The position numbers and the translations under genes are program-made. A DNA stretch of 45,024 bases from Sulfurimonas crateris (GTDB lineage: Bacteria; Campylobacterota; Campylobacteria; Campylobacterales; Sulfurimonadaceae). The DNA lies in NCBI GenBank assembly GCA_945883795.1, contig CAMCYC010000015.1:1-45024 (forward strand), read 5' to 3'. The notes below the pieces were generated by a model that was given only the letters and a program-made list of their open reading frames with translations, made no database searches and was not told where the DNA came from. Shown here in pieces: positions 8,776-44,833 of the stretch (position 1 is its first letter; each line of letters starts with the position of its first letter).

Positions 8776-9999
8776 TTATAAAAATGCTAGTTTCGGTCCA
8801 CGAACACCGATAAACTGCTGTAATTGTGTTGTTACTTTACCAGCATCAACATTTGCCTGAAGCTCTTTATAAATATTAACTAAGTGTGCTTTTGTTAAAT
8901 CACGACCACCTAATCCATAGATAAAACCACTAAGCATTGGTCTTGCTTGAGTATTAAATAATGCCCCTGCAGTTTCATTAAATAACATACCTGGTGCGCC
9001 ATTTGGAGATGAACGGTCTAGTGTAGCTATCGCTTTTACATTTTTAAGAGCTTCTGCAATTTCAAAGAATGGGAATGGACGGATAACACGAAGTCCAACT
9101 ACACCAGCTTTAATCCCTTTTGCTCTCATTTCAGTTGCAACTTCTCTAGATGTTTCAACAGAAGTTCCCATACAAATAACACACACATCTGCATCATCCA
9201 TATCGTATGATTCAACTATATTATATTTACGGCCTGAAAGTTTTTCAAAATCATCAAAAGCAGTTTGAATTTTTGGTAGAACTTTTGTCATAAGGTCATT
9301 ATGTTGACGAGCTTTATGCTCAAAGTGCCAATCTTCTTCAGTTTGTACACCATGTGTTACAGGATGTTCAAAATCCAACATGTCATTCATTGGTTTAAAA
9401 TCGCCAACAAAACCATAAGCAACATCATCGCTTAAAGTATGTACACCTTGAGCAGTATGAGAAGTCATGAATCCATCCTGATGAACCATACATGGAAGTC
9501 TAACACCATGGTCTTCAGAAACTTTAAATGCTATAAAGTTTAGGTCATAAGCATCTTGAGGGCAATAAGCATCAAGTTGAATCCAACCGCTATCACGACC
9601 TAAATACATGTCAGAGTGGTCACCATTTACATTTAATGGAGCAGCTAATGCACGGTTAACAACATTTAAAACAATTGGTAATCTCATACCAGAAGCTTGG
9701 TAAAGTGTCTCAACCATCAGTGCATAACCTTGAGAAGATGTCGCAGTAGCAACACGACCACCCGCAGCAGCAGCACCGATACATCCGCTCATAGCAGCAT
9801 GCTCAGATTCAACCATTACAAATTCACCCTCGACATAATTGTCTGCTTTGAACTTCCCATACCCTTCAACAATTGGAGTTGACGGTGTAATTGGATAAGC
9901 AGCAACAACATCTATCTGACATTGTCTTAAAGCTTGTGCTGCTGCAAAGTTTCCATCCCAAACTTCAATATCTTTTAATTCCATTTTATCAAATGCCAT
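8776..9999 (-). CDS. porA: Pyruvate:ferredoxin oxidoreductase, alpha subunit
   Basis: 407 residues from the chosen start. It supplies the pyrimidine-binding and substrate-side domains: YPITPSTPIVEG near the N-terminus and FVMVESEHAAMSGCIGAAAA with the conserved glutamate that activates TPP. The ATG at 9997-9999 has AAGGA about 8 bases upstream and overlaps the porD stop in TAATG; a frame extension to 10029 has no site and would overlap porD. Acts with PorB, PorC and PorD in the cytoplasm. The gene order C-D-A-B matches the Helicobacter-type enzyme, which is known there to use flavodoxin. Confidence 0.95.
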   Translation of the reverse strand: MAFDKMELKDIEVWDGNFAAAQALRQCQIDVVAAYPITPSTPIVEGYGKFKADNYVEGEFVMVESEHAAMSGCIGAAAAGGRVATATSSQGYALMVETLYQASGMRLPIVLNVVNRALAAPLNVNGDHSDMYLGRDSGWIQLDAYCPQDAYDLNFIAFKVSEDHGVRLPCMVHQDGFMTSHTAQGVHTLSDDVAYGFVGDFKPMNDMLDFEHPVTHGVQTEEDWHFEHKARQHNDLMTKVLPKIQTAFDDFEKLSGRKYNIVESYDMDDADVCVICMGTSVETSREVATEMRAKGIKAGVVGLRVIRPFPFFEIAEALKNVKAIATLDRSSPNGAPGMLFNETAGALFNTQARPMLSGFIYGLGGRDLTKAHLVNIYKELQANVDAGKVTTQLQQFIGVRGPKLAFL

Positions 10000-10394
10000 T
10001 ATTTTTCCTTCGCTTGTTTTGCAGGCCATTTTGCTAACTCTGCTTCTTCATCTGCTTGTTCTGGGAACATCAGTAACGATTTAGGATTTGTAGGACAAAC
10101 CTCAACACAAATACCACAACCTTTACAGTGGTCCATATCTATACCTATCATTTTTTTATCTCTTGATATAATCGAAATATCTGGACAATATATCCAACAA
10201 AATTGACAATCAATACAAAAATCTTTACTAAATATTGGCTTCTCAATTCTCCAATCAGATACACTCGCTGAAAAAGAACTATTTTGCGAATATGCACGAT
10301 TTTCTTGAATTGTTCCTGCTATATCATCTATTTTGCCATCAAATGTACGAAGCATAGCTCCGATTTCAAATTCGTCCCAACCTGTTTTTGCCAT
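9999..10394 (-). CDS. porD: Pyruvate:ferredoxin oxidoreductase, delta (ferredoxin) subunit
   Basis: 131 residues. Two [4Fe-4S] ferredoxin motifs are complete: CIDCQFCWIYCP (cysteines about 60, 63, 66, 70) and CKGCGICVEVCP (90, 93, 96, 100). A 50-residue N-terminal extension and a lysine-rich tail flank the 8-iron domain. It passes electrons from the PorB cluster to soluble ferredoxin or flavodoxin. The stop codon overlaps the porA start by one base, and porC lies 10 bp upstream, so the operon is tightly coupled. Confidence 0.95.
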   Translation of the reverse strand: MAKTGWDEFEIGAMLRTFDGKIDDIAGTIQENRAYSQNSSFSASVSDWRIEKPIFSKDFCIDCQFCWIYCPDISIISRDKKMIGIDMDHCKGCGICVEVCPTNPKSLLMFPEQADEEAELAKWPAKQAKEK

Positions 10395-10404
10395 AATCAG
10401 TTCC

Positions 10405-10962
10405 TTATTTTACTTCATCATATGCGCGCTGAATAGCGATCATGTTTGCATCAATGATTTTTTGTGGTAATTTACCAAGAATTCTCACCATACTTTCTTT
10501 GAAGAACTCTATGTCATACATACCAGAAATCTTCATAAACGCACCAAGCATTGGCGTATTTGGAATAGGTTTACCTATTGTCTCTTGCGCAATTTTGATA
10601 CAATCAACTGTGTATACTTCTTTACCCTCAAGTTTTGGTTGAGAAGCAATAAGCTCATCAGTAGTCATATGAGTAGTAATAATATACTTTGTATTCTCTT
10701 TAGCATTCACAGTAACATCTGATGTATACACTAATGCAGGGTCAATAACAAACACAAAATCCGGTTGCATATATTTTTCGTGGTTCATAATGACTTTATC
10801 ATCAACACGGTTATAAGCTGTCATAGCAGCTCCACGCTTTGCAGACCCGTAAAATGCAAATGCTTGCACATGTTTACCGGTTGTAGAAATTACATCAGCC
10901 AAACCTTTTGCACCTGTTACAGCACCTTGTCCAGCACGACTATGCCATCTGAGTTCTAGCAT
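10405..10962 (-). CDS. porC: Pyruvate:ferredoxin oxidoreductase, gamma subunit
   Basis: 185 residues with the family start LRWHSRAGQGAVTGAKGLAD, then AFAFYGSAKRGAAMTAYNRV. The gamma domain helps CoA binding in these enzymes. It is first in the porCDAB run and has a strong AAGGAG site just upstream of the ATG. The 130-bp spacer to the HAD gene (10963-11092) is very AT-rich and carries a TATACAAAAT-like stretch upstream of the Shine-Dalgarno that could be the operon -10 box. The H. pylori literature calls this subunit PorC; other schemes call it PorG. Confidence 0.94.
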   Translation of the reverse strand: MLELRWHSRAGQGAVTGAKGLADVISTTGKHVQAFAFYGSAKRGAAMTAYNRVDDKVIMNHEKYMQPDFVFVIDPALVYTSDVTVNAKENTKYIITTHMTTDELIASQPKLEGKEVYTVDCIKIAQETIGKPIPNTPMLGAFMKISGMYDIEFFKESMVRILGKLPQKIIDANMIAIQRAYDEVK

Positions 10963-11092: not shown

Positions 11093-11731
11093 TTATATTT
11101 TCCTATTTTTTAAAAAATTCACTGCTTCAAGAACATCATTAAAAATCATATTTGTATGTTTTTTGAGAGTTTCATAATCATCATATCCACTCAAAACACC
11201 AATCGAATTAACGCCTGCATTCTCTGCACAAATAATATCAAGTTTTGTATCGCCAATCATCCAAATATCTTTTGTTGTATCTCCCAAAATTTCTATTGCT
11301 TTTAATATTGGCTCTGCATGTGGTTTTGGATTCACAACATCTTCACGACCTATCAATACTTTAAAATAATGCATCAACTCAAAATATTCCATCAAAATTG
11401 TAGAATACTCTGCTGTTTTTGTTGTAACTATCCCTAAAATTGCAAATTCACTTGCTTTTTCAATCGCCTCTCGTGCATAATCAAGTAAAAGCGTTTTTTG
11501 TGTAGATATTTTTCTATAATGTTCTTTATAAGTTGCTACAAAATCCCATTTTTGAGATTCACTCACTCCCAACCTCTCAAACATAACATCAAGTGGATAT
11601 CCTATAAGTGCCTTAATATTTTCATCACTTGCATGGATAACTTGATGTATATCAAAAGTGTGATGAAAAGATTCTAAAATAGCCTCAGTTGAATCTATAA
11701 TTGTTCCGTCTAAATCAAATAAAATAATCAT
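11093..11731 (-). CDS. HAD-superfamily hydrolase, phosphoglycolate phosphatase-like
   Basis: 212 residues from the ATG at 11729-11731. Motif I is FDLDGTIIDST at the N-terminus, motif II is the threonine of GIVTTK, motif III is the lysine in VNPKPHAEP, and motif IV is WMIGDTKLDIICAENAG, so all catalytic groups are present. A helical cap follows motif I. This is a Gph/pyrophosphatase PpaX-type HAD enzyme, probably acting on a small phosphate ester such as 2-phosphoglycolate; exact substrate unknown. The start overlaps the stop of the upstream binding-protein gene as TAATG. A longer frame to 11764 would begin inside that gene without a ribosome site. Confidence 0.85.
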   Translation of the reverse strand: MIILFDLDGTIIDSTEAILESFHHTFDIHQVIHASDENIKALIGYPLDVMFERLGVSESQKWDFVATYKEHYRKISTQKTLLLDYAREAIEKASEFAILGIVTTKTAEYSTILMEYFELMHYFKVLIGREDVVNPKPHAEPILKAIEILGDTTKDIWMIGDTKLDIICAENAGVNSIGVLSGYDDYETLKKHTNMIFNDVLEAVNFLKNRKI

Positions 11732-43429: not shown

Positions 43430-43484
43430 TGGTGCGGATGGGGAGACTCGAACTCCCACACCTTACGGCACCAGATCCTAAGTC
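43430..43484 (-). tRNA. 3' half of tRNA-Leu(UAG), att-site scar
   Basis: Read on the minus strand, the sequence runs from the anticodon arm (GACTTAGGATC, anticodon TAG) through a long class II variable arm to a full T arm (GGGAG, TTCGAGT, CTCCC) and ends CATCCGC, A, CCA. A 5' acceptor GCGGATG and a D arm are absent upstream, so it is not a whole tRNA. A fragment from the anticodon to CCA is exactly what integrases leave when an element enters a tRNA gene. An intact copy is expected elsewhere. Repeats, an orphan gene and integrase remains follow on the side away from the CCA end. Confidence 0.75.
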
Positions 43485-43621
43485 TTTTAATCTTCAATTT
43501 TCATATATTCTTAAATTGATACGAATTCTTTTAAAGTGCTTCATATAAAGGGTTTTGAAGCTCTTTTGCATGAACCATCATTTGCAAATAACAACTTAAC
43601 TTTTCATTCTTTTTCTTATTT

Positions 43622-43690: not shown

Positions 43691-44092
43691 TTGGGAAGTA
43701 AAAACCGTATACTTTTAGCAATTTTAACAAATTTAATTTTACATAAACTCAGAAATACTTTTCATTCAAAAGAACTGTACATTACAAAAGCTAAATTCAA
43801 AAAAATAGAAATCAAACATATAGATGTATCTTATTATCTCTATGATAATAATTTTCAAATCATAATAAATAATACAATAGGTATCTGCTCTTATAAAAAA
43901 GAAACATCAATGATAAATTTTATATCCATGGTGGATGATAATATTTATTTATATTCTATATCTGTAAATAACTTTTTTATATATCTTGGCACATTTTTTA
44001 AATCAGATAAAAGAAAAATTCTCAAACAATGTAATCACGAAATAGATTTTTTAAATAATGAAGAAGAAAAGAAATTTGAAGATTTTATATAA
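43691..44092 (+). CDS. Orphan hypothetical protein of the integrated element
   Basis: 133 residues, start TTG with GAGGGTG 5 bases upstream. Rich in Ile, Asn, Lys and Phe, as is usual for very AT-rich cargo genes. The first part is basic (GSKNRILLAILTNLILHKLR), the middle is strand-like (KIEIKHIDVSYYLYDNNFQI) and the end is acidic (LNNEEEKKFEDFI). No motif, signal peptide or clear membrane helix; I do not recognise it. It lies between the att scar and a broken integrase, so it is probably element cargo. Its stop directly abuts the hairpin-rich RNA-like element. Confidence 0.5.
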   Translation: MGSKNRILLAILTNLILHKLRNTFHSKELYITKAKFKKIEIKHIDVSYYLYDNNFQIIINNTIGICSYKKETSMINFISMVDDNIYLYSISVNNFFIYLGTFFKSDKRKILKQCNHEIDFLNNEEEKKFEDFI

Positions 44093-44093
44093 A

Positions 44094-44193
44094 ACAAAAG
44101 GAGGGAGGACAACACCCCTCATTTATCCTGCACTGGTAATGCCCCATACTAGAGTGCAAGGCTCGTGGATGCCCTTATTTCCACCTCTTTTGT
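44094..44193. ncRNA. GC-rich multi-hairpin element, possible structured RNA
   Basis: In a very AT-rich setting, this stretch has three stems: GAGGG/CCCTC (44101-44105 with 44116-44120), TGCACT-GGTA with TACT-AG-AGTGCA (44129-44138 with 44147-44158, two bulged bases), and GTGGA/TCCAC (44165-44169 with 44180-44184). The ends ACAAAAG-GAGG (44094-44104) and CCTC-TTTTGT (44184-44193) can close the whole with one bulge. The outer stem competes with the first hairpin, so two folds are possible. I match no known RNA family. Strand is uncertain: on plus it is the 3' tail of the orphan gene. No strong promoter was picked out. Confidence 0.45.
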
Positions 44194-44317
44194 TTCTTAG
44201 CAAAGATTATAGCACAAAAATGAGAATATTTAAAGAGTTGATTTTCCTCTCAAAGAAGAGAGTAAGCCAAAAGATAATTGTAAATGAACTATATCTTAAT
44301 TTATATAAGGGGCGAAA

Positions 44318-44833
44318 ATGGCACTAAAACCAGCTGGTGGCAAATATGAAGGTGTATGGATAAACGAACTTAAAAATGGTGACACTTCTTTTTACCCACA
44401 TTCATCACATGAAATTTTAAAGCCCTATTTTTTGGGCTTTTCTGGGGTTTATCTACACTACATAACTTCATAAAAAGCCCTATTTTATGGACTTTCAAGG
44501 AAGCACATGATGAATGTGGGTTTTTATATTAACTATAGAGACGAATCAGGTAAGCCAGTTAAAGTGTTGGTAGGTAAAAAAACAGCTTCTAGTGATTTTA
44601 CTGCGAGGGATGCTTATTCAAAACTTATAGAAGTCAAATACAAGTTACAGCATAATGAAGACCCAACTATAAGAGGTAGCCGTGTCACTAAAATAAAATT
44701 TGATACACTTTGGCAAGAGTTTTATAAATATGCACTCGCAAATAAAAAGTCTCATCAAATGGATAAATCTTCCTTTCATCACACAATTTCTAAAATCAAA
44801 ATCATTTATTTTATAACTAAAAATAACTCATAA
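44318..44833 (+). pseudogene. Tyrosine integrase N-terminal part, broken by a MITE
   Basis: AAGGGGCG precedes the ATG at 44318, and the protein starts MALKPAGGKYEGVWINELKN and goes to GDTSFY before running into inserted DNA and a stop at 44471-44473. After the insert the same protein resumes: FYINYRDESGKPVKVLVGKK, then FDTLWQEFYKYALANKKSHQ, typical arm-binding and core-binding N-terminal parts of tyrosine recombinases. Removing 132 bp (MITE plus one TTTT copy) restores one frame. The catalytic R-H-R-Y domain is missing: after about SSFHHTISK the frame degenerates and ends at 44833. So it is doubly broken and cannot act. Confidence 0.75.
44394..44521. mobile_element. 128-bp MITE with 14-bp terminal inverted repeats
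   Basis: ACCCACATTCATCA (44394-44407) and its exact complement TGATGAATGTGGGT (44508-44521) bound the element. TTTT flanks both sides (44390-44393 and 44522-44525) as target duplication. It codes for nothing. Inside, AAAGCCC (44419-44425) and GGGCTTT (44434-44440) make a terminator-like hairpin, with a diverged copy of the first arm near 44475. Its right end supplies an ATGATGAATG that opens a 108-aa secondary frame into the integrase remnant. The parent transposase is not in the window. Confidence 0.8.

Follow-up and report, generated by a model that had tools for sequence, protein, structure and literature searches.

Phages can carry the antidote RNA of a type III toxin-antitoxin system on its own, as pseudo-ToxI (PMC5086642), and in the AbiF/RCd22 system of a Clostridioides difficile prophage, a conserved structured RNA neutralizes the toxin by binding the protein (PMC12373285). 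For the BECR nucleases of phages, which include fusions to capsid proteins (PMC5512222), and for the MuF polymorphic toxins (PMC5576092), the relevant passages of these two papers look to immunity by a protein or put forward different targets, and an RNA partner goes unmentioned there.

In the literature covered here, skipping-rope RNA (RF02924) comes up twice only, as an illustration of a pseudoknot supported by covariation (PMC7779021) and as a contributor of 1% of the phage noncoding RNAs used by a host-prediction program (PMC8501573). Rfam gives neither a partner nor a function for the family, and no function was found in the literature searched, a body of work that stopped short of subscription papers and the original motif report. 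In the same literature, a toxin-antitoxin reading of this RNA and the three nuclease partners reported below are undescribed, and the original motif report might name a partner. The linkage between the RNA and these nucleases suggests a testable function for an RNA family to which that literature assigns none.

Identity and structure of the RNA

Within the window (the whole 45,024-nucleotide stretch of DNA that was analyzed), the segment from 44093 to 44194 is, judged by its sequence, a member of the skipping-rope family, matching RF02924 with 41.4 bits (gathering cutoff, 36.7) over model positions 1 to 80 of 80. The match is confined to the minus strand, which places the RNA opposite to the strand read in the first-pass annotation, where the element had appeared to fit no RNA class that could be named. 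Our own model, R1, scores the window RNA at 54.9 bits and finds a single copy genome-wide. The Rfam-based whole-genome search overlooked this copy, which the homemade model recovered, so absences from the Rfam-based search are uninformative. The parts of the RNA and its predicted promoter are as follows.

44093-44194, minus strand: skipping-rope RNA, 102 nt, with its 5' end at 44194
44187-44194, minus strand: 5' arm of the closing stem P1, pairing with 44093-44100; 90% of cells paired, two-sided changes in 7 of 8 pairs
44093-44100, minus strand: 3' arm of the closing stem P1, from the alignment of relatives
44165-44184, minus strand: hairpin 1; 98% of cells paired, two-sided changes in 4 of 5 pairs
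44170-44174, minus strand: kissing-loop bases GGGCA of hairpin 1, from the loop-contact tests
44127-44161, minus strand: hairpin 2, from the fold; its length varies among relatives
44101-44120, minus strand: hairpin 3; 92% of cells paired
44107-44111, minus strand: kissing-loop bases TGTCC of hairpin 3, pairing with the loop of hairpin 1
44206-44211, minus strand: predicted promoter -10 box TATAAT of the RNA, read from the sequence; an identical or near-identical box precedes every homologous RNA that was read

The three stems and the long-range closing stem drawn in the first-pass annotation are all present, with true ends one base farther out on each side. The plus-strand folding energy is -34.2 kcal/mol (z score, -2.45), a value equaled in 1 of 200 shuffles, and the minus-strand fold has a z score of -1.15; folding energy by itself is modest evidence for structure, and it is the comparative evidence that decides. 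Relatives were gathered from viral contigs by sequence patterns and a structural descriptor, and 38 were aligned. In this alignment, 88.4% of paired cells hold, as opposed to 37 to 49% when the partners are slid by 1 to 3 columns, and there are 263 cells with two-sided changes, as opposed to 82 in shuffles. The earlier note had named compensatory changes in homologues as the check on its structure, and their presence upholds its view of a functional structured RNA; the regulatory role that it had suggested comes close to the evidence, which points to an antitoxin for the neighboring gene. Hairpin 2 is the weak part of the structure, with 64% of its cells paired in the alignment.

The loop of hairpin 1 is more complementary to the loop of hairpin 3 in the same RNA than to those of other RNAs (mean score, 9.63 versus 8.20), and none of 2,000 loop swaps was as good. 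Three loop-loop pairs show two-sided changes in the 38-relative alignment, and among homologues of the window module, the contact varies as a unit (GGGCA/TGTCC, GGAC/GTCC, and GGGAA/TTCCC). In the loci L192, L193, and L196, the pair TGACC/GGTCA was read by eye, the script favoring a more extended pairing richer in G-U. These relatives support a kissing contact of hairpin 1 with hairpin 3 through their loops. The bases said to be shared by the closing stem and hairpin 1 are indeed shared in the plus-strand fold, but the switch between two folds that had been built on them found no support among the relatives.

Besides the TATAAT box of the window, 41 of 59 Firmicutes loci have a -35/-10 pair with no more than 3 mismatches ahead of the RNA, compared with 13.3 in shuffles, and a run of five T's lies within 60 nt after the RNA in 41 of the 59. 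These promoter and T-run sites are predictions.

The neighboring gene and its predicted fold

The RNA adjoins a protein-coding gene and lies among the remains of a mobile element.

43691-44092, plus strand: gene for a 133-aa protein with a TTG start, a predicted BECR-fold RNase (His43, Thr101) and putative partner of the RNA
43430-43485, minus strand: 56 bases identical to the 3' end of the intact tRNA-Leu(TAG) gene of contig C14; attachment-site copy and element edge
44318-44833, plus strand: truncated N-terminal fragment of a tyrosine integrase with an interruption, from the reading frames

The end of the gene meets the end of the RNA exactly, the two lying on opposite strands and converging. 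Homologues in L011, L012, and L013 occupy the same position beside the RNA, usually with a TTG start, and a protein-first search added homologues from the same genus and from three more. All 13 testable homologues, drawn from four genera, abut a skipping-rope RNA (the window, L011 to L013, L190 to L194, L196, and L332 to L334, with L195 left out because its contig ends there), and the neighbor can no longer be regarded as the unrelated orphan gene of the earlier description. The gene is shortened in L194. L192, L193, and L196 are the most diverged, with weak model scores, yet by eye each shows the closing stem and the two hairpins, with loops that pair perfectly.

The module is patchy and rare: of 135 genomes in the genus, 12 have a protein match, and the one in G044 was judged false. 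No relatives of the protein were found in phages and plasmids by tblastn, and PADLOC and NCBIfam returned no match. A further candidate homologue, L197, was rejected, its similarity being 24% over 72 residues within another gene. Weak RNA model matches at L015:18192-18257 and L016:1255-1320 were attributed to chance, as they lie inside a restriction-modification gene, on the strand opposite to a conserved motif of that gene; model matches near 23 to 25 bits can arise by chance, as these two do. In genome G127, the module has a group II intron (L190:2917-3204; RF02005, 101 bits) at a distance of about 1.4 kb.

The profile of the 133-aa protein aligns with that of PBECR3 (E value of 2e-4 for a single comparison; HHalign probability, 46%), with His43 and Thr101 falling on or beside the PBECR3 His and Ser/Thr, a pair that is described, in the passage bearing on it, as the common BECR active site (PMC5512222). 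His43 is invariant in 11 of 11 sequences, and Thr101, in the fourth predicted strand, is nearly so. The predicted model (pLDDT, 76) consists of a helix, four strands, and a helix, ordered as in RelE and colicin D, and its best eight structural matches are all BECR toxins, with Z scores of at most 7.8 (BrnT, 7.8; colicin D, 6.5; CdiA-CT, 6.1). A model of PBECR3 (pLDDT, 92) has the same order of elements and the same leading structural matches.

With every Z score below 8, the structural matches alone are only suggestive; it is because sequence, order of elements, active site, and linkage all agree that the 133-aa protein is predicted to be a BECR-fold endoribonuclease. Foldseek against the PDB alone returned nothing below an E value of 0.001, and Pfam gave no PBECR match for any homologue, the gathering score of PBECR3 (PF18812) being reached by the Firmicutes partners described below and not by the 133-aa proteins. 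ToxN-fold structures are absent from the list of structural matches, and a ToxN fold is still possible.

The module sits in a decayed integrative element by a tRNA-Leu attachment site, with the RNA about 600 bases from the attachment copy. A similar N-terminal integrase fragment adjoins the RNA in L011, and an intact integrase lies beside the same module in L013. The integrase remnant of the window is itself split by a 128-bp element (44394-44521) bounded by 14-bp terminal inverted repeats (ACCCACATTCATCA). This MITE-like repeat, which has about a dozen full or partial copies in the genome, four of them identical, was recently active.

Linkage of the RNA to other BECR nucleases

Among the neighbors of the RNA in viral loci, the largest cluster comprises small PBECR3 nucleases, encoded on the same strand 26 to 71 nt upstream, and capsid fusions, in which a minor capsid protein has a PBECR2/3 domain at its end. 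When viral contigs were searched for PBECR3 first, 25 loci were recovered, and the RNA lies just downstream in 21 of the 21 that could be tested, the contigs of the other four ending 3 nt past the match; about a dozen of these 21 are new relative to the RNA-first search. The same search of named bacterial genomes (Lachnospiraceae, Blautia, Clostridium, Streptococcus, Gemella, and others) yielded 80 loci, and 74 of the 76 testable ones have the RNA just downstream. Of the six loci lacking it, two run off their contig, a third is a broken gene where a contig stops, a fourth is frameshifted, and two (L383 and L392) are true exceptions, their genomes holding an unlinked RNA. Capsid-fused PBECR2 domains occur at 34 loci, of which one is truncated, and the RNA accompanies the remaining 33, about 30 nt downstream in 32 and 2.3 kb away in one. 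The RNA is thus linked near-obligately to three kinds of BECR nuclease at more than 100 loci.

In Firmicutes, the RNA follows the nuclease gene on the same strand, whereas in the window it converges on the gene. Two RNA copies are present at L313, L323, L330, L340, L422, L430, L441, and L445, and those of L323 (2924-3002 and 3031-3110) are two distinct skipping-rope subtypes in tandem behind one PBECR3 gene. At L145, a minor capsid protein is fused to Ntox50, a further toxin domain (9174-10760), and the RNA (11294-11381) lies 534 nt downstream, with two small genes between.

No recognizable nuclease accompanies the RNA in 27 of the 36 RNA-first viral loci with enough upstream sequence, a tally that considered the PBECR and 133-aa profiles and the Ntox50 fusion of L145, in a sample picked by sequence pattern from which duplicates were removed; such RNA-only loci could hide nucleases that were not recognized. 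The toxin-linked RNA of L027 is 91 to 93% identical to the RNAs of four Enterocloster phages, in which no PBECR3 was found by tblastn. The RNA is often alone and the nuclease hardly ever so, which is the pattern that an antidote predicts.

In three phage contigs (L252:688-790, L257:2744-2844, and L295:8260-8361), the RNA is flanked by an HU-like gene on one side and a downstream reading frame on the other; two of the three proteins encoded downstream resemble each other, and no nuclease lies nearby. In Streptococcus prophages and satellites (L180:4997-5076, L182:5001-5064, L178:5001-5066, and L184:4995-5073), the RNA lies close to the prophage end, by lysin or integrase genes.

Proposed function and comparison with known systems

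The RNA is probably a separately transcribed antitoxin that binds and silences the BECR RNase, the two forming a two-part toxin-antitoxin module. This reading is built on the identity and structure of the RNA, its linkage, its promoter-like sites, and the asymmetry between RNA alone and nuclease alone; toxicity, RNA cutting, RNA binding, and neutralization are what the BECR family and the type III precedents would lead one to expect. In the window, the skipping-rope RNA would be transcribed leftward from its own promoter and form a closed junction with a kissing contact between hairpins 1 and 3, and the converging 133-aa gene, with its weak TTG start, would supply a BECR-fold endoribonuclease. 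The RNA would bind the nuclease directly and block RNA cutting, such that a cell keeping and expressing the element would be protected and a cell losing it would meet free RNase. An infecting phage that upset the module would also release free RNase, and the pair could serve element maintenance or phage exclusion. In phages that carry the RNA and no nuclease, such as those of Enterocloster, it would act as an antidote by which the phage survives these toxins. Against the antitoxin reading stands the gene order, which is convergent in the window and same-strand in Firmicutes, so that a single regulatory logic would have to serve both.

Close linkage would be expected of any partnership between an RNA and a protein, inhibition being one, and the near-obligate association, capsid-fused nucleases included, would suit an RNA that serves the nuclease as cofactor, guide, or cargo, either in an active ribonucleoprotein or carried into the next cell by the capsid-fused domain. 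This alternative is unlikely, since the RNA is commonly alone, with a near copy alone in the Enterocloster phages, where a cofactor would gain nothing, and since no variable guide segment is seen, the loops varying only as matched pairs.

It is improbable that the RNA represses the nuclease mRNA through base pairing, by a type I logic. Because the window RNA is transcribed toward the end of the gene, an mRNA that read through would carry its complement, and an interaction at the mRNA 3' end is possible where the two overlap convergently; but RNA and gene share a strand in Firmicutes. Moreover, across the 59 Firmicutes loci, the RNA pairs with the start region of its own gene no better than with those of others (lower energy with its own gene in 26 of 59; mean difference, -0.59 kcal/mol; standard deviation, 7.5).

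There is very little likelihood that the RNA has a separate phage function, such as packaging or host control, and owes its proximity to the nuclease to shared cargo near prophage ends. Several phage copies do lie by terminase, portal, HU, or lysin genes, and the Streptococcus copies lie near the prophage end, but the position right after the nuclease is fixed at more than 100 loci in three architectures, capsid genes in mid-genome included, and the flanks of the 80 bacterial loci contain no other model match save one tandem second copy of the RNA. A packaging RNA, considered on account of copies near terminase or portal genes (L051, L108, L237, and L260), was dropped as a general reading because the RNA also accompanies the nuclease in bacterial genomes. 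The earlier note had also offered a DNA-level site of the element. Such a site, for instance a hairpin used in recombination and lacking any role as RNA, has the nearby tRNA-Leu attachment copy and the adjacent integrase remnant in its favor, but it is highly improbable, as a single strand scores, unpaired bases are conserved, and the same RNA, preceded by promoter-like sites, recurs in many hosts and phages, with many copies in capsid operons or host chromosomes and often away from attachment sites.

Chances are even that the antitoxin role extends to the family as a whole, skipping-rope RNA being a general antidote to BECR RNases borne by phages and mobile elements and a new class of RNA antitoxin, as well as an immunity to capsid-fused and possibly injected RNases and a counter-defense that phages carry by itself. 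If the antitoxin reading is true, the toxin fold common to RelE and colicin D would join the RNA-controlled RNases, and capsid-fused phage RNases would have an RNA for self-protection where protein immunity was expected.

The window RNA shares with the skipping-rope family (RF02924) a full-length match, the junction, hairpins 1 and 3, and the loop-loop contact, and it differs in hairpin 2, which is longer and otherwise paired. The 133-aa protein resembles PBECR2 and PBECR3 (PF18810 and PF18812) in predicted fold, in active-site positions, and in the adjacent RNA, although, unlike them, it matches no Pfam model. In AbiF/RCd22, too, a toxin gene, there of a prophage, is accompanied by a conserved structured RNA, but that toxin is an Abi_2 protein linked to Cas13, its RNA lies upstream, and both the RNA and the protein families are unrelated to those described here. 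With the type III systems (ToxIN, CptIN, and TenpIN), the module has in common an endoribonuclease-like protein encoded beside a pseudoknotted RNA on mobile elements and phages. In contrast to those systems, the predicted fold is BECR rather than ToxN, the RNA comes after the gene or converges on it and has its own predicted promoter, and it consists of one unit of 80 to 100 nt, sometimes two, in place of upstream repeats that share a promoter with the toxin gene and are separated from it by a terminator. Because the gene order thus lacks the upstream repeats and shared promoter of type III, we do not file the module under that type, despite a manner of working that would be much alike.
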